This document shows positions 29,681 through 50,604 of a DNA stretch of 64,000 nt, one piece after another; the stretch's first letter is position 1; each line of letters begins with the position of its first letter. The notes below the pieces were generated by a model. It worked only from the letters and a program-made list of their open reading frames with translations. It searched no databases and had not been told where the DNA came from. The stretch is from Parapontixanthobacter aurantiacus (GTDB lineage: Bacteria > Pseudomonadota > Alphaproteobacteria > Sphingomonadales > Sphingomonadaceae): positions 1-64,000 of the forward strand of contig NZ_WTYW01000001.1 of assembly GCF_009827635.1 (NCBI RefSeq), written 5' to 3'. The translations under genes were made by a program, and so were the position numbers.

Positions 29681-30709
29681 ATGAACATGCCCGAAGCCAA
29701 CCACAAACCGACGATCAACGATGTCGCACGCGTCGCGGGTGTTTCGAAGAAGACCGTCAGCAGGGTCATCAATCGATCCCCGCTACTCAAACCGGAAACT
29801 CGCACGAAGGTCGAGGATGTCATCGCCTCGCTGGGCTACCGACCCAATATGCAGGCGCGCGCCCTCGCCATGGGCAGAAACTTTCTGCTCGGACTTCTTC
29901 ACGACAATCCGAATGCGCAGACGGTGCTGAACTTCCAGTTCGGAGTTCTCGATGCGATCCGCGACACGGAATTTGCCCTCGTCGTCCGCCCGGTCGATCG
30001 ACGTTCTCCGCGCATGCTCGATGACATACGATCGTTTCTCGAAGTGCAGCGTCTTTACGGCGTGCTGATCCTTCCGCCGATTTCCGAAAACGACGACCTG
30101 GCGAATCTGTGCCGCGAGATGGGCTGCGGCTACGTCCGCATGGGTTCGGCGCAACTCGATGATGACGAACATCTGGTTCAGTCGAACGATCGCGAATGTG
30201 TCGAGAATGTCATCGATCATCTCGTCGAGCAGGGGCATCGCCGCATTGCGATAATCCAGGGTCCTGAAGGATTCCGTTCCGCACAAGAAAGGTGGGAAGG
30301 TTTCTCGGCCGCGATGCACAGGCATGGCCTCGACGTTCCCGCGGACGCAATCGCCCGAGGCAACTATCGCTTCGATTCAGGTATCGCCGCTGCCGAAAAG
30401 CTGCTGGAGGGAAGTTTCCGTCCTACGGCTATCTTCGCCAGCAATGACGAAATGGCCGCCGGCGCATTCCACATGGCGCGATCGCGCGGTATCGATGTGC
30501 CAAGCGAACTGTCGATTGTCGGGTTCGACGACTCTCCCATCGCCGCTCACATCTGGCCTCCCATGACGACGGTCGGGTGGCCCATTCGGGAAATGGCAAA
30601 GGCTGCCGCGCTCAAACTGATTGACCCGTCCGAGGCCGAAGCGAAGCAGTCCATCTTTCCCGCGCGGTTGGTACGTCGCAGTTCGGTGGCTCCGCCCCAG
30701 CGCGATTGA
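29681..30709 (+). CDS. LacI-family transcriptional regulator of uronate genes
   Basis: The 342-aa product has the LacI N-terminal helix-turn-helix, TINDVARVAGVSKKTVSRVI, the hinge helix region (MQARALAMG) and a periplasmic-binding-protein-like sensor domain ending in IVGFDDSPIAAHIWPPMTTV. ATG at 29681 starts just before the DNA-binding helix; an alternative ATG is 29687. It sits divergent from the hydratase with a perfect palindromic operator between. Four further sites lie before the catabolic operons, so it most likely represses all of them and is released by a uronate intermediate (KDG or a relative, by analogy with other uronate regulators). It is the only transcription factor in the pectin locus. 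Confidence 0.88.
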   Translation: MNMPEANHKPTINDVARVAGVSKKTVSRVINRSPLLKPETRTKVEDVIASLGYRPNMQARALAMGRNFLLGLLHDNPNAQTVLNFQFGVLDAIRDTEFALVVRPVDRRSPRMLDDIRSFLEVQRLYGVLILPPISENDDLANLCREMGCGYVRMGSAQLDDDEHLVQSNDRECVENVIDHLVEQGHRRIAIIQGPEGFRSAQERWEGFSAAMHRHGLDVPADAIARGNYRFDSGIAAAEKLLEGSFRPTAIFASNDEMAAGAFHMARSRGIDVPSELSIVGFDDSPIAAHIWPPMTTVGWPIREMAKAAALKLIDPSEAEAKQSIFPARLVRRSSVAPPQRD

Positions 30710-30764: not shown

Positions 30765-30836
30765 GCGAAACACGAATCGCGTGGTTGCAAGCCAGACCGT
30801 TCGCTGACCGGACAAAGACATAGCAAGGAGCTTTCC

Positions 30837-31469
30837 ATGAAAATCGCCCTCATCAACGAGAATAGCCAAGCAGCAAAGAACGGCATCATTCACGATGCGC
30901 TGACCACGGTCGTCGAGCCTCTGGGTCACGAAGTTCACAATTATGGCATGTATACTGCCGAGGACGAGGCACAGGTGACCTATCCGATGGTAGGGCTGCT
31001 GACGGGCATTCTGTTGAATTCGGGTGCTGCCGACTTCGTGGTGACCGGCTGCGGTACCGGTACCGGTTCGATGCTGGCCGCAAATGCGATGCCGGGCGTA
31101 TTCTGCGGGCTCGTGATCGATCCCACCGATGCCTTTCTTTTCGCGCAGATCAACGACGGGAACGCGATCGCGATGCCATATGCGAAAGGATTCGGCTGGG
31201 CTGCGGAACTGAACTTGCAGGACTGCTATCGCAAATTGTTCGAAGGCACGCCGGGCGAAGGCTATCCCAAGGAGCGTGCGCAGATCATGGCGAAGAACCG
31301 CGGCGTTCTCTCGGATCTGAAGTCAAAAACATGCCATGACATGCTGACGGTGCTCAAGAACGTCGATCAGGATCTGCTGAAGAGTGCGATCGCCGGCGAG
31401 AAATTTAAGGACCTGTTCTACGAGAACTCGAAGGACGAGGAAATCAGCGACTATCTTCGCACCCTTTGA
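30837..31469 (+). CDS. RpiB/LacA/LacB-family sugar isomerase, likely 5-keto-4-deoxyuronate isomerase (DhuI-like)
   Basis: The 210-aa product has the RpiB/LacAB fold: MKIALINENSQAAKNG at the N-terminus and the phosphate/anion-loop region DFVVTGCGTGTGSMLAAN with the active-site Cys. It is longer than RpiB (about 150 aa). In streptococci a member of this family, DhuI, isomerises the unsaturated-uronate product DK-I, and its partner DhuD is an SDR. Here the next gene is the SDR KduD and the third is KDG kinase, so this protein most likely replaces KduI. AAGGAG lies six bases before the ATG, which fixes the start; an upstream extension to 30750 is not supported. An operator precedes the gene. Confidence 0.78.
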   Translation: MKIALINENSQAAKNGIIHDALTTVVEPLGHEVHNYGMYTAEDEAQVTYPMVGLLTGILLNSGAADFVVTGCGTGTGSMLAANAMPGVFCGLVIDPTDAFLFAQINDGNAIAMPYAKGFGWAAELNLQDCYRKLFEGTPGEGYPKERAQIMAKNRGVLSDLKSKTCHDMLTVLKNVDQDLLKSAIAGEKFKDLFYENSKDEEISDYLRTL

Positions 31470-31490: not shown

Positions 31491-32264
31491 ATGTCCGAAG
31501 GAACTTTCGATCTGACCGGCCGGGTTGCCATGGTGACCGGGGCTAATACCGGAATTGGGCAGGGTATCACGGTTGCACTAGCGAATGCTGGTGCCGACGT
31601 AGCTCTGGTTGCGCGGCGTGATCCATCCGAAACGCGCGAAATGGTCGAGAAGGCGGGGCGTCGTGCGCATGTGGTCATGGCCGACCTGTCCTCCATCGAA
31701 CCTTGCGCGCGGGTCGTGGAGGAAACGGTCGAGGCTCTCGGCAGCCTCGACATTCTCGTGAACAACGCCGGCATCATTCGTCGCGAGGATGCGCTCGACT
31801 TCTCCGAAAAGGACTGGGATGCGGTGATGGACGTGAACCTCAAGGTTCTGTTCTTCCTCAGCCAGGCCGCTGCCCGGCATATGACCGGCTGGGCGAGCCA
31901 GGGGGGGCGTCGTGGAAAGATCATCAACATCGCTTCCATGCTGACTTTCCAGGGAGGAATTCGGGTTCCAAGCTATACCGCTTCGAAGAGCGGAGTCGGC
32001 GGGTTGACGAAGCTGATGGCGAATGAATGGGCACCCAAGGGCATCAATGTGAACGCTATTGCGCCCGGTTATATCGCCACCAACAATACGGCAGCGTTGC
32101 AGGCTGACGAAACGCGCAACCGGCAGATAATGGAGCGTATTCCCGAAGGGCGCTGGGGCGACCCGGCCGATATCGGTGGGGCAGCAGTCTTTCTTGCCAG
32201 CCGCGCCGCCGATTACGTGCAGGGCCATATCCTCGCCGTCGATGGCGGGTGGCTGGCACGATGA
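31491..32264 (+). CDS. kduD: 2-deoxy-D-gluconate 3-dehydrogenase / DK-II reductase (SDR)
   Basis: The 257-aa product is a classical SDR with TGANTGIGQG, NNAGII, catalytic YTASK and a C-terminus, IPEGRWGDPADIGGAAVFLA and YVQGHILAVDGGWLAR, that is typical of KduD. It reduces 3-deoxy-D-glycero-2,5-hexodiulosonate to KDG with NAD(P)H in pectin and alginate-like uronate pathways. It follows the isomerase by 21 bp, and its stop overlaps the kdgK start (ATGA), so the three make one operon. Confidence 0.88.
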   Translation: MSEGTFDLTGRVAMVTGANTGIGQGITVALANAGADVALVARRDPSETREMVEKAGRRAHVVMADLSSIEPCARVVEETVEALGSLDILVNNAGIIRREDALDFSEKDWDAVMDVNLKVLFFLSQAAARHMTGWASQGGRRGKIINIASMLTFQGGIRVPSYTASKSGVGGLTKLMANEWAPKGINVNAIAPGYIATNNTAALQADETRNRQIMERIPEGRWGDPADIGGAAVFLASRAADYVQGHILAVDGGWLAR

Positions 32265-33286
32265 GCGTTCCGGCGGGGACGGGGCCCGTCGTCTGTTTTG
32301 GTGAAATGCTCTTACGGATGTCGCCTTGTGCCGGCACACCATTGTCGCGTGCCGACGCACTCGATCTCGTCGTCGGCGGAGCGGAGGCGAATGTCGCGAT
32401 TGCCTTGGCCGGTTTGGGCGTTCCGACCCGTATGCTGAGCGTCGTTCCGGACAATCCTCTTGGACATCGCGCTTTGGCGGCTCTGGGAGAGGCCGGTGTG
32501 GATCGCGTCGCCGTCACGACGAAAACTGGCCGCATGGGGGTGTATTTTTTTGAACCGCCGACCGGTCCAATCGCTGGCAGGGTGACGTATGACCGCGCCG
32601 ACAGCGCGTTCGTTCGAAGCTTGCCGCAGGAACTGAAATTCTCGCAGGCCTTGGAAAATGCCTCCTTGCTTCACTTATCGGGCATCACGCCCGCTCTCGG
32701 CAAAGCCGGCGTGGCTCTTGCCGATGCGGCTGTCGCTGCTGCGAAAGAAGCAGGAATACCGATCTGCTTCGACGGGAATTACCGGGCCAATCTGTGGGAC
32801 GCGTGGGATTGCGAACCGCGTGCGATCCTGACCGAACTGGTGCAAGAGGCAACCATTCTGATCGGCAATCACCGCGACATATCTCTTCTGCTCGGCAAAA
32901 CATTTTCAGGCGAAGGCTCTGAGCGCCGCCGCGAAGCTGCAGAGGCGGCATTCGACCGGTTTCGATCCTTGCAACTGATTGCCTCCACTGCGCGCCGTGT
33001 CGAAAGCGGTACCGTCAACGGCTTGGCCGCACGGGTCGATCTCAGGGAATCCGCCTGGCAAACTGACGAAGTCCGGATCGATCCGATCGTCGATCGCATC
33101 GGAACTGGAGACGCTTTCGCCGCTGGCGTCTTGCTCCGCTGGTTGGAAGGCGGCTCGGCTCAGGACATGGCGGAGACCGGATTGGCCTTGGCAGTCATGA
33201 AGCATGGAATACCGGGAGATTCGATTGCCGTGACGCGAAATGACCTCGATCAGTTCGACTTCGGGGGGAGCGATGTCCGCCGGTAA
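32261..33286 (+). CDS. kdgK: 2-dehydro-3-deoxygluconate (KDG) kinase
   Basis: The 341-aa product is a PfkB-family kinase: VVCFGEMLLRMSP, GGAEANVAIALAGLG, CFDGNYRANLWD and the catalytic DRIGTGDAFAAGVLL. It phosphorylates KDG, the meeting point of the saturated and unsaturated uronate branches, to KDPG. The paralogue at 2203 is similar in all motifs. The start ATG overlaps the kduD stop. Its own 3' end overlaps the esterase start by 14 bases. KDPG aldolase, the next enzyme, is not in the window. Confidence 0.9.
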   Translation: MSVPAGTGPVVCFGEMLLRMSPCAGTPLSRADALDLVVGGAEANVAIALAGLGVPTRMLSVVPDNPLGHRALAALGEAGVDRVAVTTKTGRMGVYFFEPPTGPIAGRVTYDRADSAFVRSLPQELKFSQALENASLLHLSGITPALGKAGVALADAAVAAAKEAGIPICFDGNYRANLWDAWDCEPRAILTELVQEATILIGNHRDISLLLGKTFSGEGSERRREAAEAAFDRFRSLQLIASTARRVESGTVNGLAARVDLRESAWQTDEVRIDPIVDRIGTGDAFAAGVLLRWLEGGSAQDMAETGLALAVMKHGIPGDSIAVTRNDLDQFDFGGSDVRR

Positions 33287-34823
33287 CGGAGTAACGCGCC
33301 GAGGCATGATCGCCGGCGGACTGACCGGGTCCATGCTGCTGGCGGCACCCGCTTTTGGCGCGCCTCGCGATCCTCGGGTACTGACCTACCAAGGTTTCAT
33401 CGATCGCGGGACGCCGGCTTTTCTGGGCATTCGATATGCCCGAGCGAAGCGATTTGCCCTTCCGGAGCGCGAACCGGTCCCCATGACTACGACCGATGCA
33501 ACGTCGTTCGGTCCGCTGGCTCCGCAGCGTGGCCAGCCGGTAAGCGCCGTCAGTGAGGACTGTCACTTTCTCAACATCTGGCTGCCCGACCCCCGTCCGG
33601 GCGCAAAAAAGCCGGTTATGGTCTATTTTCACGGCGGGGCATACAATGGTGGTTCGGTGACCGACCCCGTGACGCAAGGGCCATACCTTGCAGCCCAAGG
33701 CGATGTCGTGGTTGTGACCGTCAACCACCGCCTCAACGTCCTCGGATACGGCTGGCTGCAACCGTTCGGCGAACAATTCAGACACACCGGCAACCTGGGG
33801 CAACTCGATCTAATCGTAGCCCTGGAATGGGTGCGCGATCATATTGCCGCGTTCGGAGGCGATCCGAACCGCGTGATGGTCTTCGGTCAGTCGGGGGGCG
33901 GTGCGAAAATCGCCACGCTCATGGGGATGCCCGAGGCTGACGGACTTTTCCATTCTGCCGCGACGATGAGCGGTCAGCAGGTAACCGCACAGGGTCCGGG
34001 CAATGCATGGAAACGGATGCAGGCTTTCATGGCTCAAACGGGCGCGAAAGATGCCGAAGCGTTGGAGTCCATGCCGCTCGAGGAAATGGTCGAGGGGCTT
34101 TCGGCAATCGATCCGGTTCTTGGTGGAAGCCTTTATTTCGGGCCTGTGCTGGACATGGTCCATCTCCATCGTCATCCGTTTTGGCCGAACGCTGCCCCGC
34201 AATCGCTTCATATCCCGATGATCCTCGGGAATACGACCGACGAGACGCGTGCGTTCATCTCGCCTGACGGACCGGTCGTGACAGGTTTGGACTGGTCGAA
34301 CATCGCCGAGCGTCTCGGCCCTCAAATCAAGATCGATCTAAGACCCGATTGGGTCGTTAAGCAGTATCGCGAACATTTTCCTGACTGGAGCGCTGAAGAA
34401 ATTTTCTATGCGGCGAGCACGGATGGACGCAGCTGGCCTGGCCAGTTCATCGAAGCCGACGAACGCGCACGGGCAGGTGCAGGCGATACCTGGGTTTATC
34501 AACTGGACCGAGAATCTCCGATCGATCCGCAACGCGGTGCAGCACATACCGATGACCTTCCCTATGTTTTCGGAACGCTCGGCGCAGAAGGAAGCTTTTC
34601 GGGGACCGGAAAGCGCGCACGCGAAATTTCGGCAGCCATGATCCGGGCATTTTCCGGATTGGCGCGCGGCGGTAGGCCGGGTCTGTCAAATTGGCTGCCG
34701 TACCGACTACCGGAGCGTCAAACTCTGATGATCGAAGAGGACCGCTTCGCGATGGCAAGCGATCCGCGCGGTTGGCAGCGCGAGATGTGGTCAACCGCGC
34801 CTTATATCCAACCGGGAATTTGA
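33273..34823 (+). CDS. type-B carboxylesterase with Tat-like signal
   Basis: The 516-aa product starts with a twin-arginine-type signal (VTRRGMIAGG, then a hydrophobic stretch to about residue 30). The carboxylesterase fold shows the oxyanion motif YFHGGAYNGGS, nucleophile GQSGGG near residue 210, acidic residue in GNTTDETRAF and catalytic His in GAAHTDDLPYVF. It would act in the periplasm or outside. In this operon it may remove acetyl, methyl or feruloyl groups from pectic oligomers; the family alone does not tell which. GGGGGAG precedes the ATG at 33273, which lies within the end of kdgK. Confidence 0.8.
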   Translation: MSAGNGVTRRGMIAGGLTGSMLLAAPAFGAPRDPRVLTYQGFIDRGTPAFLGIRYARAKRFALPEREPVPMTTTDATSFGPLAPQRGQPVSAVSEDCHFLNIWLPDPRPGAKKPVMVYFHGGAYNGGSVTDPVTQGPYLAAQGDVVVVTVNHRLNVLGYGWLQPFGEQFRHTGNLGQLDLIVALEWVRDHIAAFGGDPNRVMVFGQSGGGAKIATLMGMPEADGLFHSAATMSGQQVTAQGPGNAWKRMQAFMAQTGAKDAEALESMPLEEMVEGLSAIDPVLGGSLYFGPVLDMVHLHRHPFWPNAAPQSLHIPMILGNTTDETRAFISPDGPVVTGLDWSNIAERLGPQIKIDLRPDWVVKQYREHFPDWSAEEIFYAASTDGRSWPGQFIEADERARAGAGDTWVYQLDRESPIDPQRGAAHTDDLPYVFGTLGAEGSFSGTGKRAREISAAMIRAFSGLARGGRPGLSNWLPYRLPERQTLMIEEDRFAMASDPRGWQREMWSTAPYIQPGI

Positions 34824-35695
34824 TGATGAAAAGACTGTATCTCGCCTCCTTTGCCGCATTGGCCGCGATGTCGGCAACACCGCTACAGGCGCAGTCCGGA
34901 CCGCCATCTTCCGTAATTGCGACCGAGACCAGCACGGTCGAAGGCATCAACAAAATCATCATGGTCGGCGATTCCACGACAGCGACCGGGAATGGTTGGG
35001 GGTCGATGTTTTGCGCCCATCACACCACGCATCCGACCGCTTGCCTCAATCTTGCCCGGAATGGACGCAGTAGCGGATCGTACCGTGCGGAGGGGTTGTG
35101 GGACGTGGCACTCGCCGAGATGCGGGTGGAAGGTTACAATCGGACTTTCGTCTTCATCGGCTTCGGTCACAACGATCAACCCGGCAAGCCGGGTCGCTCG
35201 ACCGATCTTGAGACCGAGTTCCCGGCGAACATGCAACGCTATGTTGCGGAAGCGAGAGAGGCAGGGGCTGTTCCGATACTTTTCACCCCGCTTACGCGCC
35301 GGTTGTTCGATGAGGGGGAGGTCGCGCGCGATCTCGATCCTTGGGCTGAGGCTATACGAAAGATCGGCCGCGAAACCGGGACGCCGGTGATAGACCTGAA
35401 CGAAAACAGCCGCGAAATCGTTCAGGCGCTCGGTCCGTCGGTGCAGAATTTGATGGCGGAACGACCCCCGAGCGCAGAGGTAGCGGCAGCTGCGGCGATC
35501 GACGGTGAGACGTTGCCTTCCGAAACTGGCCAGGCTCCCCTCGTGCGTTCTCCCGAAGGACTGCGCGTCGCACGGATGAATTCCCGTTTCGACTACACCC
35601 ATTTGGGCGAATATGGCGGTAAGCTGTTCGCTGCGGTCGTTGCGGGTGAAGTAGTACGGCAAGTGCCGGAAATACGTAAACTTATTCGGCCCTAG
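34823..35695 (+). CDS. rhamnogalacturonan acetylesterase-like SGNH hydrolase (CE12)
   Basis: The 290-aa product has a Sec signal (cut near ATPLQAQ, residue 23) and SGNH blocks: VGDSTTATGNGWG with the nucleophile Ser, ARNGRSSGSY, FIGFGHNDQ and the closing DYTHLGEYG with the Asp-His pair. This matches CE12, which removes acetyl groups from rhamnogalacturonan/pectin. The ATG at 34823 overlaps the stop of the esterase (TGATG). It is the last gene of the isomerase operon. Confidence 0.85.
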   Translation: MMKRLYLASFAALAAMSATPLQAQSGPPSSVIATETSTVEGINKIIMVGDSTTATGNGWGSMFCAHHTTHPTACLNLARNGRSSGSYRAEGLWDVALAEMRVEGYNRTFVFIGFGHNDQPGKPGRSTDLETEFPANMQRYVAEAREAGAVPILFTPLTRRLFDEGEVARDLDPWAEAIRKIGRETGTPVIDLNENSREIVQALGPSVQNLMAERPPSAEVAAAAAIDGETLPSETGQAPLVRSPEGLRVARMNSRFDYTHLGEYGGKLFAAVVAGEVVRQVPEIRKLIRP

Positions 35696-35700: not shown

Positions 35701-36126
35701 TTAATCGACCGGATAAGCGATGATGATGGAGAGCGGCTCGTTGCCGGTCTGCCGAATGCCGACCACGGCGCCGTCGTAGAGGTAGGCTGCCATGCCGGGT
35801 GTAAGTTCAGCTTCGACGCCATCGGAAATGACTACTCCGCGCCCCGAGGTCACGTAGTAGACTTCGTCGTGAGAGATGGGATGTTCTCCTACCGCCGCGC
35901 CCGGATCGAGAACGCGGCGGCGGAATTCCATGCGGCGAGGTTGGGGTGCCGCGTCACTTATGCGGTACGCAGTCGACATTCCGATCGCCCCATGGGGCGG
36001 GGCTTCGCGCACCATTACATCGGTTTCTCTGACCACGACCATCGGCGGCACGGCGGTCGGCTCTGCTTCAGGTACGGAAGCACAGCCTAACAAGCCGAAA
36101 ACCGTCAGACAGACGGCAGATCTCAT
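35701..36126 (-). CDS. cupin-domain lipoprotein
   Basis: The 141-aa product has a short signal with lipobox LLGC (Cys near residue 14), then a linker and one cupin. The first cupin motif GEHPISHDEVYYVTSGRG has two His and a Glu; the third His expected in the second motif is replaced in DGAVVGIRQTGN, so metal binding may be weak. KdgF, a cupin, linearises unsaturated uronates, but it is cytoplasmic; a membrane-anchored cupin with a pectate lyase is unusual. Start ATG overlaps the lyase stop (ATGA), proving close coupling. Function unknown. Confidence 0.7.
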   Translation of the reverse strand: MRSAVCLTVFGLLGCASVPEAEPTAVPPMVVVRETDVMVREAPPHGAIGMSTAYRISDAAPQPRRMEFRRRVLDPGAAVGEHPISHDEVYYVTSGRGVVISDGVEAELTPGMAAYLYDGAVVGIRQTGNEPLSIIIAYPVD

Positions 36127-37457
36127 TGCTGCATCCCGCGGCTTTCCCGGTCGCGCGGGGAGAGATGTTCCTGCGCACCCTCTTTTTGCCCCGGATACAT
36201 GCCAGAACGCGGTGTCATCGTCGTCAAATCCCAATCCTGTTCGCGAAAGGGCGCCTGCGTCATCTCGAACAAGGGGTAACCACCGACTTCGCTCTCGGCA
36301 TCGATAATCTCGCCTCGGCCTTCCGCGATGAAGAACAGAACGCGTATCTCCATGGCGCTGCGATCCCACGGTCTGGCGCCCGATGTTGCCAGGAGTGTGG
36401 TCTCGACGTCTTGGGCGGGCATGATGTCGAAGCCGGAGAGGTCATGCAGCGGTTCCTGTCGCTCGATGATGTCCGCTTCGGTCACGCCGTATCTGCCGAA
36501 CATCGGCAGATCGTTGCCATGCCGGTCGACCGCGATGTTGTCCCTGCCGTAATACAGCAGATCGCCCACGCCGCCGATCATGAGGAACGGAAGATTGTCG
36601 TCGGTACTGTTGCCGCCCCGCATGACGTTGCCGACAGCAGTCAGTTCCCCGTCGACCGGTTCGTGCCCCGCCCATTCGAGATCCATGAGATTGTAGTGAA
36701 CTGCACGTAACTGCGGGTCGTAGATCAGGTTGTTGACCATGACAGCTGAAACACCGCCCTTCAGGAGCGGCGATCTTTCGACATGATGTGCCCAGATGTT
36801 GCGTTCGAAAACGATACCCGTGGCGTTATCGTGAATGAGAGAGCCTTTGGAATGCTCGCCCTTCGGATGAGTCGAATCGGCAAGGCCCTCTGCTGCGAGG
36901 TTTGAACGGAAGACGACATTGCGGCTCGTACCCTCGCGCCAGTCCTCCACCGTCTCGCCGGTGAACCGCGGCCCCGAGGCGGACATGTTTTCGTCGATGG
37001 CCCAGAAAAAGCTATTGTTTTCGATAAGCAGATTGTGCGCCGACCGGGTTGCAAAGGCGTCCGCTTCCCAACCGTGAAATTTCGGGAGACCGTCGCTTCC
37101 GACGACTACGCGAAGGTGCTGAATGATGACGTCGTTGGCATTCACGTCGATCCCGCCGCGCATCAAAGTAATACCGGGGGACGGAGCCGTCTGGCCTGCA
37201 ATCGTGAGATCCGGTTCGGTTACCGTAAGCGAGGACAATTCAAGATCGATCGTGCCGCCCACCTCGAAAACGACGATCCTCGGTCCCTTTGCCGCGATCG
37301 CCTCGGCGAGGCTGCCCGGGCCATCCTTGTCCAAGGTCGTAACGCGAATAATTCTGCCGCCCGCGCCGCCATCCGTCGGATCGTTCGACTGCGCGACCAC
37401 AGGGGTTGCGAACAATCCGAGGCATAACGCCAAGAGACAATTTGCCAGTAACTTCAT
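36123..37457 (-). CDS. secreted pectate lyase (PL1-like)
   Basis: The 444-aa product has a Sec signal ending near ATPVVAQ (residue 23). The mature part reads as a right-handed beta-helix: RIIRVTTLDKDGPGSLAEAI, RIVVFEVGGTIDL, TIAGQTAPSPGITLMRGGI, IQHLRVVVG and NLLIENNSFFWAIDENMS, the last corresponding to the Ca-binding/DHxS-like turn of bacterial PL1 proteins. It cleaves polygalacturonan by beta-elimination to unsaturated oligomers. The long upstream frame to 37904 is unrelated. It has an operator upstream (37518), and is divergent from the TonB receptor. Confidence 0.85.
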   Translation of the reverse strand: MKLLANCLLALCLGLFATPVVAQSNDPTDGGAGGRIIRVTTLDKDGPGSLAEAIAAKGPRIVVFEVGGTIDLELSSLTVTEPDLTIAGQTAPSPGITLMRGGIDVNANDVIIQHLRVVVGSDGLPKFHGWEADAFATRSAHNLLIENNSFFWAIDENMSASGPRFTGETVEDWREGTSRNVVFRSNLAAEGLADSTHPKGEHSKGSLIHDNATGIVFERNIWAHHVERSPLLKGGVSAVMVNNLIYDPQLRAVHYNLMDLEWAGHEPVDGELTAVGNVMRGGNSTDDNLPFLMIGGVGDLLYYGRDNIAVDRHGNDLPMFGRYGVTEADIIERQEPLHDLSGFDIMPAQDVETTLLATSGARPWDRSAMEIRVLFFIAEGRGEIIDAESEVGGYPLFEMTQAPFREQDWDLTTMTPRSGMYPGQKEGAQEHLSPRDRESRGMQQ

Positions 37458-37635: not shown

Positions 37636-40443
37636 ATGAAGTTTTTGGTTTCCAAGCGAAGCGCCAAGGCGATATTGCTAGCTGGCAGCGCGCTCGCGTT
37701 TTCGAGCCCTGTCTTTGCGCAAGATGCCGGTACGCTCGACGACGACGAGGTCAGCGATGCTGCGTCGCAGTCATCGGCCGAAATTACGGAAGACGACAAT
37801 GTCATCGTGGTTTCGGGCTTTCGGGAATCGCTGAACGCTGCAATTTCGGCGAAGCGCGAGGCGGTCGGCCAGGTAGACGTCATCGTGGCCGAAGACATCG
37901 CCAAGTTCCCCGATACAAACCTTGCCGAATCGCTTCAACGGATCCCCGGCGTCGCAATCGAACGCGATGCCGGCGAAGGCCGTCAGATCACCGTTCGCGG
38001 GCTGGGCGCGCAATTTACCCGGGTTCGTGTCAACGGAATGGAGACGATCGCAACTTCGGTCGACGGCGCATCGTTCAATCGTGACCGCGCTTTCGATTTC
38101 AACATTTTCGCTTCCGAGCTTTTCAACTCGATTGTCGTCAACAAGACGGCTTCCGCCTCTCTTGACGAAGGTTCGTTGGGTGCCGTCATCGATCTGAATA
38201 CCGGCAATCCGTTGGCTTATGGTGCCGGACTCAAGTTCGTAGGTTCGGCTCAGGCGCGATACAACGACCTGAACGACGATTTGTCGCCGCGTCTCGCGGG
38301 CCTGTTGGCATGGAATAACGCCGACGAGACCTTCGGAGTTTCCGCTTCGGCCGCCTGGACGAAGTATGAAACGCCTGAACTGGGCAACAATACGGTTCGT
38401 TGGACCGATGGTTCAATTACGCAAAGGCCGGATGGTTCGTATTCATTCACCAACATTTTTAGAACCGTCGATGGTGTGAATTGCCGCGCAAATCCAACCG
38501 ACGCTGGTTGCAATGAAGTGGCGGATGCATTCCATCCGCGCATTCCGCGCTACGGTCTCGTCAATCACGATCGCGAGCGTCTGGGCGCCACCGGTGCCAT
38601 CGAGTTCCGCCCGAGTGACAGCACGGACATCGAAATCAACGCACTCTACTCAAATTTCAAGGAAGATCGTGACGAGTACTGGGGTGAAGTGCTGATCCGT
38701 TCCAACGAAAGCAGCATCGACCTAACCAACTATACGATCGATGGGGACAACAACGTCATTTCGGGCGATTTGACTAACGCCTGGATCCGCAACGAGCGTT
38801 ATCATCGCGAATCCGAAACCGACTTCTATCAGGTATCGGGACAGCTCGAGCAGCGCTTCGGCGACCAGTTCGCTGCCACTTTGTTCGGCGGGTTCTCGAA
38901 GTCGGATGCGCAGATACCCGTCGAAACCACTATAATCTTCGATGATCGCGACGGGGTTTACAGCTACGACTATTCCGACATGCGCTTCCCGCTGCTGGTA
39001 TTCGGCACTGATGTGACCAACCCGGCCAACTTTCAACTGGCCGAGTTCCGCGACCGCCCGAGTTCCGTTGAGAACAAGTTCAAGACCGTATCTCTTGATC
39101 TTGAATGGGAGCCGGTCTCCGGTCTGACGTTGTCGGCAGGGCCGTTTTATCGGCAATTCGACTACTTCACGACCGGTGCTCGTCGCGACAGCGTCTATTG
39201 CTCGGCCTTCTCCTGCGCAGCAGGGACTTATGGCGCTCCTGTGACGCAGGATCTGGCCGAGTTGTTCCAACTTGGCGAGGCAGGCCAGCCGGCTGGCAAC
39301 ACCAATTCGTGGATCGTACCCGATCTCGATGCGGCCGTCGCATTTCTCGACCTCTACAACCGGCCTGCCGTCCTTCAACAGGGCGATGAACGATCGGTCC
39401 AGGAGAAAACCAAGGGCGCGTATTTCCAGACGGATTTCGAAATTGACGAAGGGCTCCGGATCACGGGTAACTTCGGTGTGCGTTACGCTCACACGGATCA
39501 GTCTTCCCAAGGTTTCAACAACGGTCAGTTCGTAACCGTCGAACGGACCTATGACGACTTCCTTCCAGCAGTGAACATCAATGTCTTTCCGACTGACAAC
39601 TTCATTCTGCGAGGCGCGGTTGCACAGGTCATAACCCGTCCTTCGCTCGGTTCGCTCACGCCGGGCGGTTCGGTCGACCAGTTCAACTTCCGGATTTCAA
39701 CCGGCAACCCGTTCATCGACCCCTATCGGGCGTGGAACTATGATGTTTCCGCGGAATGGTATTTCGCGCCCGGCGCGATCCTGTCCCTCGCCGGTTTCGT
39801 GAAGGACATCGAAAGCTTCCCGGTCGGCAACTCCCTGCAGGTTACCTACGCCCAAAGCGGCCTTCCAACCTCGCTACTTACTTCCGGGACACCAGCATAT
39901 GATGCTGTCGTAAATGGCACCAATCCAACCCGCGAATTCGAGTTCCGTACGACCACGAATGGCGAAGGTGCAATCATCAAGGGGCTGGAACTCGGCATGC
40001 ACCTTCCCTTTTCGGTATTCTCAGATGGGGCCTTTTCCGATTTCGGCGTTCTGGGTAACGTCACCTACGTCGACAGTAATCAGGACGTCGAATTCCAGGG
40101 TGAAATATTCGAGACCACGTTCCCCGGCGTGTCCAAATACTCCGCCAACGGAACGGCTTATTACGACAATGGTCGCCTGTCGGTTCGTGTCTCCGGCGCT
40201 TATCGTAGCGACTACAACACCGGAAACAGCGGAAACGGCAATTTCCTCGAAGGTTTCGATTCCTCTTTCAATCTTGATGCGGCGGTCCGCTACAAGATTA
40301 CCGATACCCTCGAACTCACGCTCGACGGCAATAATCTGACCGACGATTATCGCTATCGCTGGACCGACGATGTGGCTCGCCGCAACTACGAGAACAACCA
40401 CTTCGGGCGCATCATCATGGCTGGCGTTCGCTTTGAATACTAA
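37636..40443 (+). CDS. TonB-dependent receptor, probable oligogalacturonide importer
   Basis: The 935-aa product has a signal peptide ending in FSSPVFAQ (about residue 29), a TonB-box-like NVIVVSGFRESL, the plug domain (DIAKFPDTNLAESLQRIPGV, ITVRGLGAQFTRVRVNG) and a 22-strand-type barrel ending in Phe-rich AGVRFEY. The plug is of the TonB receptor type that sphingomonads and Caulobacter use for sugars. GGAGGA eight bases before ATG 37636 fixes the start. It is the first gene of an apparent six-gene operon to dctM and lies divergent to the pectate lyase, so a role in oligogalacturonide uptake over the outer membrane is likely. Confidence 0.88.
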   Translation: MKFLVSKRSAKAILLAGSALAFSSPVFAQDAGTLDDDEVSDAASQSSAEITEDDNVIVVSGFRESLNAAISAKREAVGQVDVIVAEDIAKFPDTNLAESLQRIPGVAIERDAGEGRQITVRGLGAQFTRVRVNGMETIATSVDGASFNRDRAFDFNIFASELFNSIVVNKTASASLDEGSLGAVIDLNTGNPLAYGAGLKFVGSAQARYNDLNDDLSPRLAGLLAWNNADETFGVSASAAWTKYETPELGNNTVRWTDGSITQRPDGSYSFTNIFRTVDGVNCRANPTDAGCNEVADAFHPRIPRYGLVNHDRERLGATGAIEFRPSDSTDIEINALYSNFKEDRDEYWGEVLIRSNESSIDLTNYTIDGDNNVISGDLTNAWIRNERYHRESETDFYQVSGQLEQRFGDQFAATLFGGFSKSDAQIPVETTIIFDDRDGVYSYDYSDMRFPLLVFGTDVTNPANFQLAEFRDRPSSVENKFKTVSLDLEWEPVSGLTLSAGPFYRQFDYFTTGARRDSVYCSAFSCAAGTYGAPVTQDLAELFQLGEAGQPAGNTNSWIVPDLDAAVAFLDLYNRPAVLQQGDERSVQEKTKGAYFQTDFEIDEGLRITGNFGVRYAHTDQSSQGFNNGQFVTVERTYDDFLPAVNINVFPTDNFILRGAVAQVITRPSLGSLTPGGSVDQFNFRISTGNPFIDPYRAWNYDVSAEWYFAPGAILSLAGFVKDIESFPVGNSLQVTYAQSGLPTSLLTSGTPAYDAVVNGTNPTREFEFRTTTNGEGAIIKGLELGMHLPFSVFSDGAFSDFGVLGNVTYVDSNQDVEFQGEIFETTFPGVSKYSANGTAYYDNGRLSVRVSGAYRSDYNTGNSGNGNFLEGFDSSFNLDAAVRYKITDTLELTLDGNNLTDDYRYRWTDDVARRNYENNHFGRIIMAGVRFEY

Positions 40444-40457: not shown

Positions 40458-41474
40458 ATGAAGGGCCCGCGCATGAGAAGTGATCGCCGATCGCTCCTGT
40501 GCGCGGGCCTTGCTTTTCCCGCGCTTCTGTCGGGGAAACTGGCGGCCCAGACAGCGCCGCCTTCAGCCAGCGAACCATTCGCAGGCGCGTTTGCTGATCC
40601 ATCGGCAACGATCGACCTGTGGCCGTCCGGCGCACCGGGCATGCCAAGTGCGCTGCCGGTCGAAGAGACGACAGAACGATCGCAAGCTTCCGGCATTTCG
40701 GACCGCGCCGTCCTTGGCATTACCGTGCCGCGGCTCATGGTTTTCCGACCCGACCGGGCGAACGGGGCAGCGGTACTGCTGATGCCGGGCGGCGGATACA
40801 ATCATGTCGTGGTCGACAAGGAAGGCTACGAGATGGGCCGCTGGCTTGCGGCGCGCGGCATTACCGCTTTCGTCCTCTTCTACCGCCTTCCTTACGACGG
40901 TTGGGCTGCCGGACCGGATGTCGCTCTTTCCGATGCACAGCGGGCGATGCGCGTGATTCGGCACCGCGCAGGTAGCTTCAGCATCGATCCGGAGAAGATC
41001 GCGGCGATGGGGTTTTCCGCCGGCGGCCATTTATGCGCCGATCTCGCCACGCGTTTCGCCGTGTCGACCTATCGACCGATAGACGAGGCGGATGGTCTTT
41101 CGGCTCGTCCCCTATGCGCTGCACCGATCTACCCGGTCATCAGCATGGATCCGGCGGTCGCTCATGCCGGTTCGCGCACGCGCTTGCTCGGTGACGTGCC
41201 ATCGCGGGAACAGGAACTCGCCCATTCACCAGATAGAAACGTCCCGAGAGACGCTCCGCCGGTGTTTCTGCTCCACGCGGAGGACGACGATGTCGTTCCG
41301 GTCGAAAATGCGCTGCTCTTTCGGGCAGCCCTCAAGGCGCAGGGTATTCCGGTCGAGACCCATCTGTTCGAAACCGGCGGCCACGGGTTCGGCCTGCGTA
41401 GGGCCGTAGGCAAACCGGTCGAAGTTTGGCCTGAGTTATGGCTCGGCTGGGCGCGCAGCAGGGGATTTGTATGA
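40458..41474 (+). CDS. secreted alpha/beta-hydrolase, acetylesterase-like
   Basis: The 338-aa product has a signal (RRSLLCAGLAFPALLSGKLAAQ, Tat- or Sec-type) and the esterase/lipase fold of the acetylxylan-esterase-like group: oxyanion LMPGGGYNHVV, nucleophile GFSAGGHL near residue 195, Asp in HAEDDDVVPVENA and His in GGHGFGLR. It probably removes acetyl groups from plant polysaccharide pieces. It starts 14 bp after the TonB receptor and its stop overlaps the GH43 start. Confidence 0.8.
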   Translation: MKGPRMRSDRRSLLCAGLAFPALLSGKLAAQTAPPSASEPFAGAFADPSATIDLWPSGAPGMPSALPVEETTERSQASGISDRAVLGITVPRLMVFRPDRANGAAVLLMPGGGYNHVVVDKEGYEMGRWLAARGITAFVLFYRLPYDGWAAGPDVALSDAQRAMRVIRHRAGSFSIDPEKIAAMGFSAGGHLCADLATRFAVSTYRPIDEADGLSARPLCAAPIYPVISMDPAVAHAGSRTRLLGDVPSREQELAHSPDRNVPRDAPPVFLLHAEDDDVVPVENALLFRAALKAQGIPVETHLFETGGHGFGLRRAVGKPVEVWPELWLGWARSRGFV

Positions 41475-43084
41475 CCATGCGTCGCCGGGAAATACTGACG
41501 GGAGCGGGGGCGTTGGGTCTGACATCCTGCGCTGCTCCGATGACGGTAAGTTCCGTCGGAGAACGTGTCGAACCGTCGCAGGCGAGGACCTATCGCAGGG
41601 GGTTCGACAATCAGCGTATTCCCGATCAGGGCGACGGAACATTTCTCAATCCGATAGTCTCGGGCGATCGGCCCGACCCTGCCATCCTGAAGGATGGCGA
41701 AGACTATTTCATGACCTTCTCTACGTTCGATGCTTACCCGGGTCTCACGATCTGGCATTCGCGCGATCTGGTGAACTGGCAACCGCTCGACGCTGCCTTG
41801 ACGAAGAACATCGGAGCGGTCTGGGCGCCGAGCCTGCACAAGGACAAGGGTCGTTATCTCCTCTACATACCGGTGAAGGCACAGCCCAATGACATCTTCG
41901 TCGCGTGGGCGGACGACATTCGTGGGCCGTGGAGCGAGCCGATCTCGCTCGGTTTGCCAAACCACATCGACCCGTGCCATGCGGTGGCGGAGGACGGCAG
42001 CAGGTGGCTGTTCCTGTCAGGCGGTGATCGCGTGCGGCTTTCCGACGACAATCTGTCGCTCGCCGGCGATGTCGAGCACGTTTACGACCCGTGGCGCTAT
42101 CCTTCGGACTGGATCGTCGAAGGCTTTTCGCCCGAAGGTCCGAAGATACACCGGGTGAACGACTGGTACTACATGATCACGGCTGTCGGCGGGACAGCTG
42201 GACCGCCTACCGGACACATGGTGATCGCGGCTCGGTCGAAGTCGCTTCATGGTCCATGGGAACATCACCCCGACAATCCTCTGGTGCGTACGACGAGCAT
42301 CGACGAAGCCTGGTGGTCGCGGGGACATGCCTCGCTGGTTCAGGCACCAGACGACAGCTGGTGGTCGTTCTATCACGGCTATGAAAACGGATATTGGACG
42401 CTGGGGCGCCAGTGCCTTCTGGATCCGGTCGAATTCACTGCCGATGGCTGGTTCCACATGACGGGCGGCGACCTGTCGCGGCCCATCCGCAAGCCCGCGG
42501 GGGGTGCCCCAGTCCCGCACGGAATGGCGTTGACCGACGATTTCACTGCCCCGCTGGAGCTCGGTAGCAAGTGGGCTTTCTTCAAGCCGGCAGACGACGA
42601 AGCCGATCGTGTTCGTAGCGGCGGGGGCGTCCTTGAATTTGCAGGAAAGGGAGATGCCCCGTCGAGCGGCTCGCCGCTCTTGCTGACGGCGGGTGATCGC
42701 TCCTACCGGTTCGAATGCGACATCGAGATCGCGCCGGGCGGGCGGGCGGGGCTGATCCTGTTCTACGACGACAAGCTATATTGCGGGCTAGGCTTTGACG
42801 AGGATCGCTTCGTTACGCATCAGTACGGCAGGGAACGCGCACGTCCGGCTAATCCGCATGGCGGCAGGATGCGCATGCGGGTAACGAACAGGCGCCATAT
42901 CGTCGTCTACGATACGAGCGGGGACGGAGGGCGTAGCTGGACACGGTTCGACCGCGGAATGGAGGTCTCGGGCTATCATCACAATGTGCGCGGGGATTTC
43001 CTCATGTTACGACCCGGGCTGTATGCTGCCGGTCCGGGATCGGCGAAGTTTCGCAACTTCACCTATATGGCTCTCGATGACTAG
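41471..43084 (+). CDS. glycoside hydrolase family 43
   Basis: The 537-aa product begins with a Tat-like/lipoprotein leader (MTMRRREILTGAGALGLTSC). The five-blade propeller shows the catalytic residues of GH43: base Asp in GDRPDPAIL, pKa-setting Asp in PNHIDPCHA and acid Glu in IVEGFSPEGPKI. A C-terminal beta-sandwich (about residues 365-537, DDFTAPLELGSKW onward) is typical of many GH43 enzymes. Activity is likely on arabinose, xylose or galactose side chains of pectin. Start ATG overlaps the previous stop. Confidence 0.88.
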   Translation: MTMRRREILTGAGALGLTSCAAPMTVSSVGERVEPSQARTYRRGFDNQRIPDQGDGTFLNPIVSGDRPDPAILKDGEDYFMTFSTFDAYPGLTIWHSRDLVNWQPLDAALTKNIGAVWAPSLHKDKGRYLLYIPVKAQPNDIFVAWADDIRGPWSEPISLGLPNHIDPCHAVAEDGSRWLFLSGGDRVRLSDDNLSLAGDVEHVYDPWRYPSDWIVEGFSPEGPKIHRVNDWYYMITAVGGTAGPPTGHMVIAARSKSLHGPWEHHPDNPLVRTTSIDEAWWSRGHASLVQAPDDSWWSFYHGYENGYWTLGRQCLLDPVEFTADGWFHMTGGDLSRPIRKPAGGAPVPHGMALTDDFTAPLELGSKWAFFKPADDEADRVRSGGGVLEFAGKGDAPSSGSPLLLTAGDRSYRFECDIEIAPGGRAGLILFYDDKLYCGLGFDEDRFVTHQYGRERARPANPHGGRMRMRVTNRRHIVVYDTSGDGGRSWTRFDRGMEVSGYHHNVRGDFLMLRPGLYAAGPGSAKFRNFTYMALDD

Positions 43085-43102: not shown

Positions 43103-44122
43103 ATGCACTCCATGAAGACGAAGTCTTTGCTGTCCCGGCGGGCGTTTCTTTCCGCGAGTGCGGCGCTCGGAGCTGCGAGCCTGTTGCCGGGTTGCGAGCC
43201 CGTCATGTCGGGCTTGCTGACGGGGGCGGACGCGCATCCGGGCGACTATCCCACCGTTCGCGCCGTGGAATTCATGGGCGAATATCTGGCGCAGCAGACC
43301 GGAGGCAGGCTCGGCATAAAGGTCTTCGCCGGGGGACAACTGGGAAGCGAAACCGACACGCTCGAGATAACGAGTTTCGGCGGCATCGACTTCAACCGGG
43401 TCAATTTCGCTCCGCTCAACTCGGTCGAGCCGATGACGATCCCGTTTTCGTTGCCATTCGTATTCGATTCGGTCGGTCACATGCGGCGCGTCGTCGACAG
43501 CGAAGTGGGCGACGAAGTGCTCGCGGCCATGGAGCCGCACGACCTCATAGGTCTCGCGATTTACGATTCCGGCGCGCGCAACTTCTACAACGCCCAGCGA
43601 GCAATCAGGACGCCGGCCGACATGGAAGGGCTGAAGATCAGGGTTCCCGCGTCGGACCTCTATATCGCGATGGTCAATGCTCTCGGCGCCAACGCGGTAC
43701 CGATCCCCTTCGGCGAGATTTACCAGTCGCTCGCTCAGGGCGTCATCGACGGTGCAGAAAACAATTGGCCGACCTTCGTCGGAGAGCGGCATTACGAGGT
43801 GGCAGACTATCTGAGCCTGACCGAACATCTGCTAACGCCGGAAATGCTCGTAATGAGCAAATCGAGTTATGAAGGACTGTCGCCGGAAGATCGCCTGCTG
43901 GTCCGGGAGGCGGCGAAGGCATCGGTCGTCGAGATGCGACGCCTGTGGGACCAGCGCGTTGCGGAAGCGCGGCAAGCTGTCGCTTCCTCCAGCGTGTTGG
44001 TGAACGAAGTCGACAAGACCCCATTTGCTGCACTCATGCGACCGGTCTGGGATCAGTTCATCGAGACGCCCGCTCAACAATCGATAGTGCGAAGGATACT
44101 CGCAATGGGAGAAAGCGCCTGA
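43103..44122 (+). CDS. dctP: TRAP transporter substrate-binding protein
   Basis: The 339-aa product has a Tat-like signal (LSRRAFLSASAALG) that ends in LLPGC, so it may be lipid-anchored. The DctP-type domain shows GGRLGIKVFAGGQLGSE, MEGLKIRVPASDLY with the conserved carboxylate-binding Arg, and PIPFGEIYQSLAQGVIDGAENNW. It binds the organic acid, here probably galacturonate or an unsaturated uronate, for the TRAP permease. An alternative ATG lies at 43112. It is followed directly by dctQ and dctM. Confidence 0.9.
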   Translation: MHSMKTKSLLSRRAFLSASAALGAASLLPGCEPVMSGLLTGADAHPGDYPTVRAVEFMGEYLAQQTGGRLGIKVFAGGQLGSETDTLEITSFGGIDFNRVNFAPLNSVEPMTIPFSLPFVFDSVGHMRRVVDSEVGDEVLAAMEPHDLIGLAIYDSGARNFYNAQRAIRTPADMEGLKIRVPASDLYIAMVNALGANAVPIPFGEIYQSLAQGVIDGAENNWPTFVGERHYEVADYLSLTEHLLTPEMLVMSKSSYEGLSPEDRLLVREAAKASVVEMRRLWDQRVAEARQAVASSSVLVNEVDKTPFAALMRPVWDQFIETPAQQSIVRRILAMGESA

Positions 44123-44601
44123 TGGCCGCGAAAATTTCCCGCTGGCTGATCGCATTTGGCTCGCTCGGCCTGCTTGCCATGACGGTCATCATCGGATGGC
44201 AGGTCTTTGGCCGGTTCGTGCTTAATTCGAGCCCGTCATGGACCGAGCAGGCATCACTCATACTGATGATCTGGTACGTGATGTTCGCAGCCGCGGCCGG
44301 CGTTTACGAAGGCTTTCACATCAGGATTGCGCTGATCGAAGAAAAGTTCGGCGAACGCGCCCGACCACTGCTCCGTCTTGTGGCCGTCATAGTAGCGTTG
44401 GTGGGACTGGTATTGCTCGTTTACGGGGCGCAGCTGTGCTGGGCAGTGCGGGGCAATGTCGTTCCTTCGCTCGGCGTCAGTCGCTCCATCGCTTACATAC
44501 CCCTGCCGATTTCCGGTCTTCTCATGGCAATCTTTGCCCTTCCGCAGATATCGACCGGGCGTCCGCCCCAAGCCTCTCACGAAGATACGAGGACAACCTG
44601 A
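44122..44601 (+). CDS. dctQ: TRAP transporter small permease subunit
   Basis: The 159-aa product has four membrane helices, with GWQVFGRFVLNSSPSWTEQAS and GVYEGFHIRI as the typical DctQ marks. It helps the large permease. The start overlaps the dctP stop (TGATG) and its stop overlaps the dctM start in the same way. Confidence 0.9.
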   Translation: MAAKISRWLIAFGSLGLLAMTVIIGWQVFGRFVLNSSPSWTEQASLILMIWYVMFAAAAGVYEGFHIRIALIEEKFGERARPLLRLVAVIVALVGLVLLVYGAQLCWAVRGNVVPSLGVSRSIAYIPLPISGLLMAIFALPQISTGRPPQASHEDTRTT

Positions 44602-45881
44602 TGGAACTGTTGGTCCTCTTTGGAGTGCTCTTCCTGCTGCTGGTCATCGGTGTACCGGTCGCTTTTTCCCTGCTCGCCGCATCGCTTGCCTGTTTCGCGA
44701 CCATGGGCATTCCACCGATCGTGGCGGTACAGCGCGTGGCCGCCGGCATCAGCGTTTTCACGCTCATGGCAATCCCGTTCTTCATCTTCGCGGGCGACCT
44801 CATGTACCGGGCGGGGATCGCCGACCGGCTCGTTCGAGTCGCGGACGCCGCAATCGGCAGGGTGACCGGCGGACTGGGAATCGTGAATGTGGGGGCTTCG
44901 ATGATGTTCGGAGCGGTTTCCGGTTCTGCCATCGCCAGCGCCTCTGCGATCGGGTCGAGCATGGTTCCGCTCATGAAGGACAAGGGCTATCCGGGCGATT
45001 ATGCGGTGAATGTGACGGTCACTGCGGCCATCGTCGGGTTGCTCATCCCTCCCTCGCACAACATGATCATCTATTCGGCGGCATCTGGGATCGGAGTATC
45101 CATCGGCGACCTTTTCCTTGCAGGCGTCATTCCGGGTTTGCTGACTGGCCTGATGCTGATGCTCGTCGCCTGGCTGGTCGCAAAGAAGCGCGGTTTGCCG
45201 ACGGGCTATTTCCCGGGCTGGCGCGAATTCATCCGCGCAGCCGCGTTCGCGATCCCCGGATTGATGACCGCCGTCATCATCATGGGCGGCATTCTCAGCG
45301 GCTTTTTCACACCGACGGAAAGTTCGGCCGTCGCCGTCATCTATACGATGCTCGTAGGAACTCTCGTTTATCGCAGCCTCGGATGGAAAGGCACCTGGGA
45401 GGCGGCGGCAAAGTCGGTGCGCACGGCCTCGATGGTGCTGTTCATCATCGCGGCAGCCACCGCGTTCGGGTTTGCGCTGGCTCTGCTGGAAGTCCCGGCG
45501 GCGCTGGCAGCCCTGATCGGCATCATCACCGACAATCCCATTCTCACCCTGCTGATCATAAACCTGATGTTGCTGGCGCTCGGCACCTTTATGGACATGG
45601 CGCCGCTAATCGTAATTACCACGCCCATCTTTCTTCCGGTTGCGATGGGAGTGGGGGTAGATCCGGTGCATTTCGGCATCATCATGATGCTCAATCTCGG
45701 CATCGGTTTGGTCACGCCGCCAGTCGGTTCGGTCCTGTTCGTGGGGTCCGCCGTCGGGAAGATACCCGTCACCACGCTCGTTCGGACGATCTGGCCGTTT
45801 TACCTGACATTGCTGGCCGCACTGCTGTTGACGACCTACGTCCCGGCGCTGTCCTTGTGGCTGCCGACAATGTGGTCGTAA
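44601..45881 (+). CDS. dctM: TRAP transporter large permease subunit
   Basis: The 426-aa product has about 12 helices and the DctM signatures LMAIPFFIFAGDLMYRAGI, MMFGAVSGSAIASASAIGS, LLIPPSHNMIIYS and GLVTPPVGSVLFVGSA. It carries the substrate across the inner membrane with sodium. It is the last gene of the receptor operon and convergent with uxaA. Confidence 0.92.
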   Translation: MELLVLFGVLFLLLVIGVPVAFSLLAASLACFATMGIPPIVAVQRVAAGISVFTLMAIPFFIFAGDLMYRAGIADRLVRVADAAIGRVTGGLGIVNVGASMMFGAVSGSAIASASAIGSSMVPLMKDKGYPGDYAVNVTVTAAIVGLLIPPSHNMIIYSAASGIGVSIGDLFLAGVIPGLLTGLMLMLVAWLVAKKRGLPTGYFPGWREFIRAAAFAIPGLMTAVIIMGGILSGFFTPTESSAVAVIYTMLVGTLVYRSLGWKGTWEAAAKSVRTASMVLFIIAAATAFGFALALLEVPAALAALIGIITDNPILTLLIINLMLLALGTFMDMAPLIVITTPIFLPVAMGVGVDPVHFGIIMMLNLGIGLVTPPVGSVLFVGSAVGKIPVTTLVRTIWPFYLTLLAALLLTTYVPALSLWLPTMWS

Positions 45882-45884: not shown

Positions 45885-47402
45885 CTAAAGCGTGACGCCG
45901 CGTTTCCAGATGGAGATGACCCGCTGCCCCGATCGTTCAGCGGTCGTCTGCTGCCCGCTCGCCACGTCGAGTAGATAGCGCGAGAAATCGTCCACTGTGC
46001 TGTTGTCGCTTTCGTTCAGGACGCGACTGGCATCGAAATCGATCCAGCTCGTTTTTTCTCGTGCGAGGCGTGAATTGGACGCGACCTTGACGGTGGGCAC
46101 GGGAAATCCCAGCGGGGTTCCGCGACCGGTGGTGAACAGGATCAGCGTCGCACCTGCGGCAGCGAGCGCGGTAGAGGAAACAGCGTCGTTGCCGGGTGCT
46201 TCAAGCAGCGTCAGGCCGGGTTCCGATGCCTGACCGCCATAATCGATGACATCGACTAGCGGAACGCTGCCGCCCTTCTGTACGGCGCCGAGCGACTTCT
46301 CCTCCAAAGTCGTTATCCCGCCCGCAATATTTCCGGGCGAAGGGTTTTCCGACACCGGCTGACCCTGTTCGATGAAATACCGTTTGAAACGATTGAGAAG
46401 TTCACTTGCCTCGGAATGAACGCCTGCGTCTGCGGCACGGGCGAACAGCGCATTCTCCGCCCCGAATATTTCCGGGATCTCTGTAAGAACGAGTTTGCCT
46501 CCGCTTGCGCCCAACCGGTCGCTGAACCGCCCCAAAAGCGGATTTGCCGTCAGCCCGGAAAGAGCGTCCGATCCCCCGCATTTGAGACCTACTGTCAGCG
46601 CGCTGGCGGGTGCTTCCTCACGGCGCGATTTGGCCAGTTCTCCGGCAAGTTCGCGAATAATTCCAAGCAATCTTTCGCGTTCGTCGCCGGGGTCCTGCGC
46701 CAGCATGGTCCGCAATTTCGCGCGGCTTCGCTGGGGGACGCGGTCGATTAGTGCATCGAGCTGGTTGCTCTCGCAGCCGAGGCCCACCAGCACGACGCCG
46801 CCGGCATTGGGGTTGTCGCACAAGGCAGCCAGTATGTTGCGAGTTCCTTCGAGATCGTCTCCAAGTTGCGAACAGCCGTGCGGATGGCCGAACCCGATGA
46901 CCGCATCGACTTCCTCAGCGTGAAGTGCGTTGGCTTCCCGGCCAACCATCTCGACGAGTGGCGCGACGCACCCGACCGTGGGCAACAACCAGATTTCGTT
47001 CCGCGTAGCGAACCTGCCGTCCGAACGAGCGTAACCCTGCCACGTGTCGAGCGGGGCGACGTGCGATCCCGTTCCGCTGTGCTCGTAATTACCGTAATCG
47101 ACTTCTCCCACGAGAGCAGTCGCAAGGTTGTGTGAATGAACGTGCTGGCCGGTGAGAATGTCCTGCTTGGCGAGCCCGATCCGTTCTCCATAGCGCAGGA
47201 CAGCTTGTCCGGCCGGGTGATCGCTCAAGGCGATCTTGTGACCTGCGGGAATTGGTTCGAGCGTTCTCAGCGACTTTCCGCGAACCGAGATTTCTTCGTT
47301 CTCTTCGAGGTCGTGCATCGCGACGGCTACGGTGTCGCGGGGATGCGAGCTCCATATGGCCGGCAGGCTCTCAGTATTGCGGTGTTGGGCGAGTGCGTTC
47401 AT
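45885..47402 (-). CDS. uxaA: altronate dehydratase
   Basis: The 505-aa product joins the small SAF domain (residues 1-100, with HDLEENEEISVRGKSL, AGHKIAL and GQHVHSHN) and the large iron-dependent dehydratase part, with GFGHPHGCSQLGDD, VGLKCGGSDALSGLTANP and TTGRGTPLGFPVPTVKV. It turns D-altronate into KDG. It is divergent from uxaC with an operator between them. Confidence 0.92.
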   Translation of the reverse strand: MNALAQHRNTESLPAIWSSHPRDTVAVAMHDLEENEEISVRGKSLRTLEPIPAGHKIALSDHPAGQAVLRYGERIGLAKQDILTGQHVHSHNLATALVGEVDYGNYEHSGTGSHVAPLDTWQGYARSDGRFATRNEIWLLPTVGCVAPLVEMVGREANALHAEEVDAVIGFGHPHGCSQLGDDLEGTRNILAALCDNPNAGGVVLVGLGCESNQLDALIDRVPQRSRAKLRTMLAQDPGDERERLLGIIRELAGELAKSRREEAPASALTVGLKCGGSDALSGLTANPLLGRFSDRLGASGGKLVLTEIPEIFGAENALFARAADAGVHSEASELLNRFKRYFIEQGQPVSENPSPGNIAGGITTLEEKSLGAVQKGGSVPLVDVIDYGGQASEPGLTLLEAPGNDAVSSTALAAAGATLILFTTGRGTPLGFPVPTVKVASNSRLAREKTSWIDFDASRVLNESDNSTVDDFSRYLLDVASGQQTTAERSGQRVISIWKRGVTL

Positions 47403-50592: not shown

Positions 50593-50604
50593 GACGACGC
50601 GGTT

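Follow-up and report, generated by a model that had tools for sequence, protein, structure and literature searches.

A small cupin gene that begins inside the stop codon of a pectate lyase gene in Parapontixanthobacter aurantiacus raises the question of what a cupin contributes to pectin use alongside a lyase. The cupin gene (35701..36126, minus strand; 141 aa) was recognised by profile search, structural model and alignment. It lies downstream of a gene for a PL1-type (PelZ-like) pectate lyase with a signal peptide (36123..37457, minus strand; 444 aa), which was assigned from profile and fold matches. Coordinates refer to the window, i.e., the whole 64,000-nucleotide stretch of DNA that was analysed. 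The two genes share the four nucleotides ATGA (36123..36126, minus strand), in which the ATG of the cupin lies within the stop of the lyase, TGA, as an earlier sequence-only reading had noted, and this overlap is kept in relatives. That reading also described the cupin as a membrane-anchored, periplasmic or surface relative of KdgF, the cupin that opens unsaturated uronates inside cells, and suggested that it could linearise or bind the lyase product before uptake.

The coupling of cupin and lyase is not due to chance, because 48 of the 65 related loci in which the lyase gene immediately precedes the cupin have the same 4-nt overlap (a start-stop offset of -4) and in the rest the cupin starts within 10 nt (offsets of -1 in six loci, +1 in six and +10 in five). 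The cupin scores 36.1 bits against PF07883 (Cupin_2), above the cut-off of 27.2, which places it in the cupin superfamily. The lyase matches the PelZ profile (NF041900) with an E-value of 1e-93 and a score of 314 bits, which is under the curated cut-off of 840, and its closest match by both sequence and fold is PfPL1 9BUJ (phmmer E 5e-17, Foldseek E 1e-10). Its predicted structure (pLDDT 69.6) is a beta-helix similar to characterised PL1 lyases, consistent with membership of PL1. The PF00544 profile found no match in the P. aurantiacus genome, the partner lyase included, so further diverged PL1 lyases could be missed by it in this genome.

The pair sits within a complete pectin/uronate cluster. 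On one side, all on the plus strand, are genes for a LacI-family regulator (29684..30709), syntenic in relatives, a DhuI-like DHU isomerase of the RpiB/LacAB family (30834..31469), KduD (31491..32264; TIGR01832 above cut-off), a PfkB-family KDG kinase in the KdgK role (32261..33286), a carboxylesterase (33240..34823) and a GDSL esterase resembling pectin acetylesterases (34823..35695). On the other side, also on the plus strand, are a TonB-dependent receptor (37636..40443), an alpha/beta hydrolase (BD-FAE; 40458..41474), a GH43 enzyme (41471..43084) and the DctP binding protein of a TRAP transporter (43103..44122). These are followed by the TRAP component DctM (44238..45881, plus strand), whose reading frame starts ahead of the DctM domain and probably includes DctQ, the altronate dehydratase UxaA (45885..47402, minus strand), the uronate isomerase UxaC (47513..48913, plus strand) and a member of the mannitol-dehydrogenase family in the UxaB role (48802..50256, plus strand). 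A family-by-family search of the genome gave no match to GH88/105, GH28 or PL22. The DhuI-like gene stands directly before kduD, a combination of kduD and dhuI that matches type H of PMC12838403, and is absent at this position in the other sphingomonad clusters of our set. The cluster is flanked by two copies of an 845 bp direct repeat (7207-8050 and 50399-51241; 93.5% identical), 43 kb apart, in which an amidohydrolase-like ORF ends and a 138-aa ORF is found.

The gene pair recurs in the pectin clusters of other sphingomonads. A scan of genome contigs found 243 relatives of the cupin, and the best 80 of these, from Sphingomonadales, Hyphomonadaceae/Parvularculaceae and a few Burkholderiales, were taken further. 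Among these 80 loci, 76 have at least one pectinase or uronate-catabolism gene within 10 kb. The others are L066, which is cut by a contig end and still has the TonB receptor, hydrolase and GH43 genes of the cluster, and three Massilia loci (L087, L092, L108), in which the cupin is 72-74% identical and no pectin genes are nearby. Homologues unrelated to pectin genes, which would speak against the role suggested earlier, are thus confined to the three Massilia loci. The cupin of L087 has two integrase genes close by, suggesting gene transfer.

Cupin matches were found in 16 of 148 related genomes (13 intact, one truncated in L032, and two marginal in G003 and G010). Across 396 genomes of the order, cupin and lyase occur together in 46, with 8.2 expected (hypergeometric P ~1e-39, taking genomes as independent and ignoring kinship), while the cupin occurs alone in eight and the lyase alone in 14. 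The cupin is dispensable, an aid rather than a necessity, since 14 of the 60 lyase-bearing genomes do without it; nearly all of these 14 are without KdgF too, and nothing replaces the cupin at its site in the cupin-less lyase loci that were read. This is what would be expected if ring opening of the unsaturated uronate also runs spontaneously, as has been described (PMC11381880, PMC12838403). In one cupin-less genome (L168:6605-8779), the gene for TRAP DctP comes immediately after that of the PL1 lyase and in the same orientation, which links the lyase to TRAP uptake. In another locus (L032:9916-10116), the cupin is truncated within an otherwise intact cluster that has also lost the PL1 lyase and has a PL10 lyase.

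The partners of the cupin vary between loci. In L025 (9841-11619) a single ORF encodes both lyase and cupin; the lyase signal is kept and a Pro/Ala linker replaces the signal of the cupin. In three loci within pectin clusters (L152, L155, L156) the cupin forms the C-terminal domain of a ThuA protein (PF06283, E 6e-56) that carries a signal peptide. These three had been considered as plain long frames and proved to be ThuA-cupin fusions; a further candidate fusion, L151, was rejected as just a long open frame. A gene for a PL10 lyase, whose fold is structurally unrelated to that of PL1, adjoins the cupin gene in L031, L155, L157 and L158 and is found at another place within the L029 and L083 loci. 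The cupin follows a TRAP permease gene in five Hyphomonadaceae/Parvularculaceae loci (L063, L072, L076, L085, L101), with a 4-nt overlap in L063, and its neighbourhood in Undibacterium (L103) includes a GH88/105 enzyme, two TonB receptors, an MFS transporter and a LacI regulator. The element common to these partners is the unsaturated uronate, not one lyase. As the cupin is also paired with PL10, with TRAP transporters and once with GH88, its occurrence tracks the product and not any single lyase, and a module specific to the lyase is disfavoured.

The AlphaFold2 model of the cupin (pLDDT 89.8) is a cupin barrel, and cupins fill the fold-search matches; a fold without a ligand pocket, which would count against a KdgF-like role, is not what is predicted. 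The model aligns well with KdgF (5fpx: Z 15.1, rmsd 2.5 over 102 residues; 5fq0: Z 14.8). The sequence-only reading correctly recorded an H-x3-H-x-E first motif (H82-P-I-S-H86-D-E88) and the loss of the last metal His, where V122 stands instead, and it overlooked that the canonical HxH pair has lost its second His too (I84). Among the elements of a canonical metal cupin (HxH, E/Q and a final His), H82 and E88 are therefore kept, and I84 and V122 replace His in 81 of 81 sequences. Conservation of I84 and V122 shows that the loss of canonical ligands is a fixed trait of the family and not decay. The same 81 sequences share invariant H45, R55, D58, R69, R71, H82, I84, H86, D87, E88, V122 and Q126, and some 50 positions are invariant or nearly so.

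A gapless alignment with BeKdgF (H50-E-H52-F-H54-S-Q56) pairs H82 with His50, I84 with His52, H86 with the non-ligand His54, and E88 with Gln56, and V122 takes the position of His90, so that two of the four ligands (His50, His52, Gln/Glu56, His90) are kept. The catalytic residues of KdgF are Asp100 and Arg106 in YeKdgF numbering (PMC11381880); the catalytic Asp aligns with Ile135/136 of the cupin and the C-terminal Arg is missing. Like the KdgF proteins of known structure (YeKdgF 5FPX/5FPZ, HaKdgF 5FQ0, BeKdgF 7ZYB/7ZYC; fold Z 14.4-15.1), the cupin is small and single-domain, has an aligned HxxxH-[DS]-[EQ] motif, is clustered with kduI/dhuI-kduD genes and would act before KduI/DhuI. It differs from them in being exported rather than cytosolic, in sharing only ~16% identity, with no sequence match in family-level searches and a weak local match of 46 columns to a KdgF profile, and in lacking both the second and last metal His and the YeKdgF Asp100/Arg106 pair. 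We rejected the cupin as a KdgF, as none of the 81 members has the catalytic Asp or Arg of KdgF and all of them lack two of its four metal ligands. The earlier assignment as a KdgF relative thus holds for the predicted fold and the pathway slot and fails for the chemistry: the cupin combines the fold and slot of KdgF with a different active site.

KdgF itself, with YeKdgF as the query, has no match in the P. aurantiacus genome at E<=0.001 and was found in one of the 13 related genomes with an intact cupin. Within the order (396 genomes), the cupin is present in 54 genomes and KdgF in 41, with three genomes in common. The cytosolic KdgF is thus missing from 51 of the 54 cupin genomes, which supports the candidacy of the cupin for the step normally done by KdgF. 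Mutual avoidance of the two in the order is not significant (three genomes with both, against 5.6 expected; P 0.16), and the case is therefore built on the absence of KdgF and on its alginate context and not on exclusion. The nine KdgF loci that were read all belong to PL6+PL17 alginate clusters, also in the three genomes that have both genes. So, judging from sequence, the cupin would occupy the place of KdgF, but outside the cytoplasm.

The nearest known relative of the cupin by both sequence (E 3e-6) and fold (Z 17.5, rmsd 1.9, 111 residues) is TM1287 (1O4T), which is listed just as a putative or predicted oxalate decarboxylase and has, in the HMMER alignment, a His at or beside the position where the cupin has V122. 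We know of no link between TM1287 and pectin. Searches of the open-licence literature found no description of the cupin family, and nothing relevant on a cupin with a pectate lyase in Sphingomonas, CelOCE, ThuA with cupin and pectin, or TRAP uptake of unsaturated galacturonate; the family is apparently undescribed.

The N-terminus of the cupin (MRSAVCLTVFGLLGC) has the lipobox LLGC with Ala at +2, within a signal sequence of residues 1-15 (36082..36126, minus strand) that was identified from the sequence and its relatives, and has the features of an SPase II lipoprotein. Since there is no Asp at +2, the window copy is predicted to be an outer-membrane lipoprotein. A lipobox is found in about a dozen relatives; AxA-type signals occur in others, and many begin with just a hydrophobic stretch of 10-14 residues. 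Among the latter, L056, L079 and L109 have a hydrophobic N-terminus of 12-14 residues that has no basic n-region, which is unusual for a signal of export or an anchor. Export of relatives with a short hydrophobic start is likely, because of their homology and the fusions to exported domains. The periplasmic or surface location proposed earlier is therefore consistent with the export signals. Membrane anchoring holds for the window copy and the dozen or so relatives with a lipobox and not for most of the family, and lipid anchoring is rejected as an essential family trait.

We tentatively propose that the cupin is an exported binder or ring-opener (or anomerase) of unsaturated galacturonate. 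It would act in pectin uptake, as an outer-membrane lipoprotein here and in the periplasm elsewhere, and its substrate would be what the neighbouring lyase releases, 4,5-unsaturated galacturonate as the monomer or as small oligomers. The uronate may be held in the barrel through the invariant arginines R69 and R71, with H82, H86 and E88 as putative acid-base residues that speed the opening of the ring or the exchange of anomers. The product, linear or in the correct configuration, would then pass through the TRAP or MFS transporter to DhuI/KduI, KduD and KdgK, and the cupin would take, outside the cytoplasm and by means of another active site, the position held by cytosolic KdgF in alginate pathways. 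In favour of the proposal are the pectin and uronate genes around nearly all relatives, the kept coupling, the fusions, the range of partners, the absence of KdgF and of GH88/105, GH28 and PL22 from this genome, the cupin barrel and the invariant residues. Points against it are the loss of the KdgF catalytic residues and of two metal His, the closer fold of TM1287, the spontaneous reaction, the lyase genomes that do without the cupin, and the Massilia loci.

An account in which the cupin purely binds fits almost as well, although we consider it rather unlikely. Here, a non-catalytic exported protein would serve as a small lipoprotein-type solute carrier near the outer membrane, where it would bind the lyase products, (unsaturated) galacturonate or its short oligomers, and pass them to the TRAP binding protein or an MFS transporter. 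The lost metal site and KdgF catalytic residues, set beside a strongly conserved presumed pocket, favour binding, as do the coupling to TRAP DctQM in Hyphomonadaceae/Parvularculaceae loci and the lipobox of several members. However, the strict invariance of H82, H86 and E88 seems to go beyond the needs of simple binding, and no single-domain cupin acting as a periplasmic uronate carrier was found in the literature searched. Less probable again is another exported enzyme on pectin fragments (an isomerase, an epimerase or an oxidative cupin like the copper enzyme CelOCE). Cupins are diverse in function, CelOCE (9bwf/9bwi) is itself a KdgF-like cupin, and the model aligns with 9bwi_B at Z 13.2; but the two have no sequence match at E<=1, and the absence of two canonical metal ligands throughout the family disfavours a standard copper or iron site. 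It is more doubtful still that the cupin is an accessory domain of the lyase, presenting substrate or stabilising the enzyme, kept as a separate chain through translational coupling. The 4-nt overlap, the single ORF of L025 and the presence of the cupin in 46 of 60 lyase genomes would all suit such a domain, but the family also occurs with the unrelated PL10, with TRAP or GH88 or without any lyase, and 14 lyase genomes lack it. A decaying relic without present function is very improbable: the cupin is missing from some otherwise intact clusters and broken in one (G013/L032), but the conservation pattern indicates purifying selection, and the coupling is kept and new fusions have arisen.

The discovery of KdgF gave cytosolic uronate metabolism its missing ring-opening step, and most strains with kdu/dhu genes are without KdgF (PMC12838403). 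The ring-opener proposal makes a conserved, exported cupin other than KdgF a concrete candidate for this step in some such bacteria. Its family is defined by a non-standard motif, H-x-I-x-H-D-E with V replacing the last His, and is directly assayable. It is possible, with less confidence than in the proposal itself, that these cupins form a separate exported enzyme family, probably without the usual cupin metal, which acts on unsaturated galacturonate in the periplasm by opening or anomerising it. Pectin-using sphingomonads would thus process lyase products before inner-membrane uptake, without a cytosolic KdgF, and a ring-opening step otherwise known just inside cells would move across the inner membrane.
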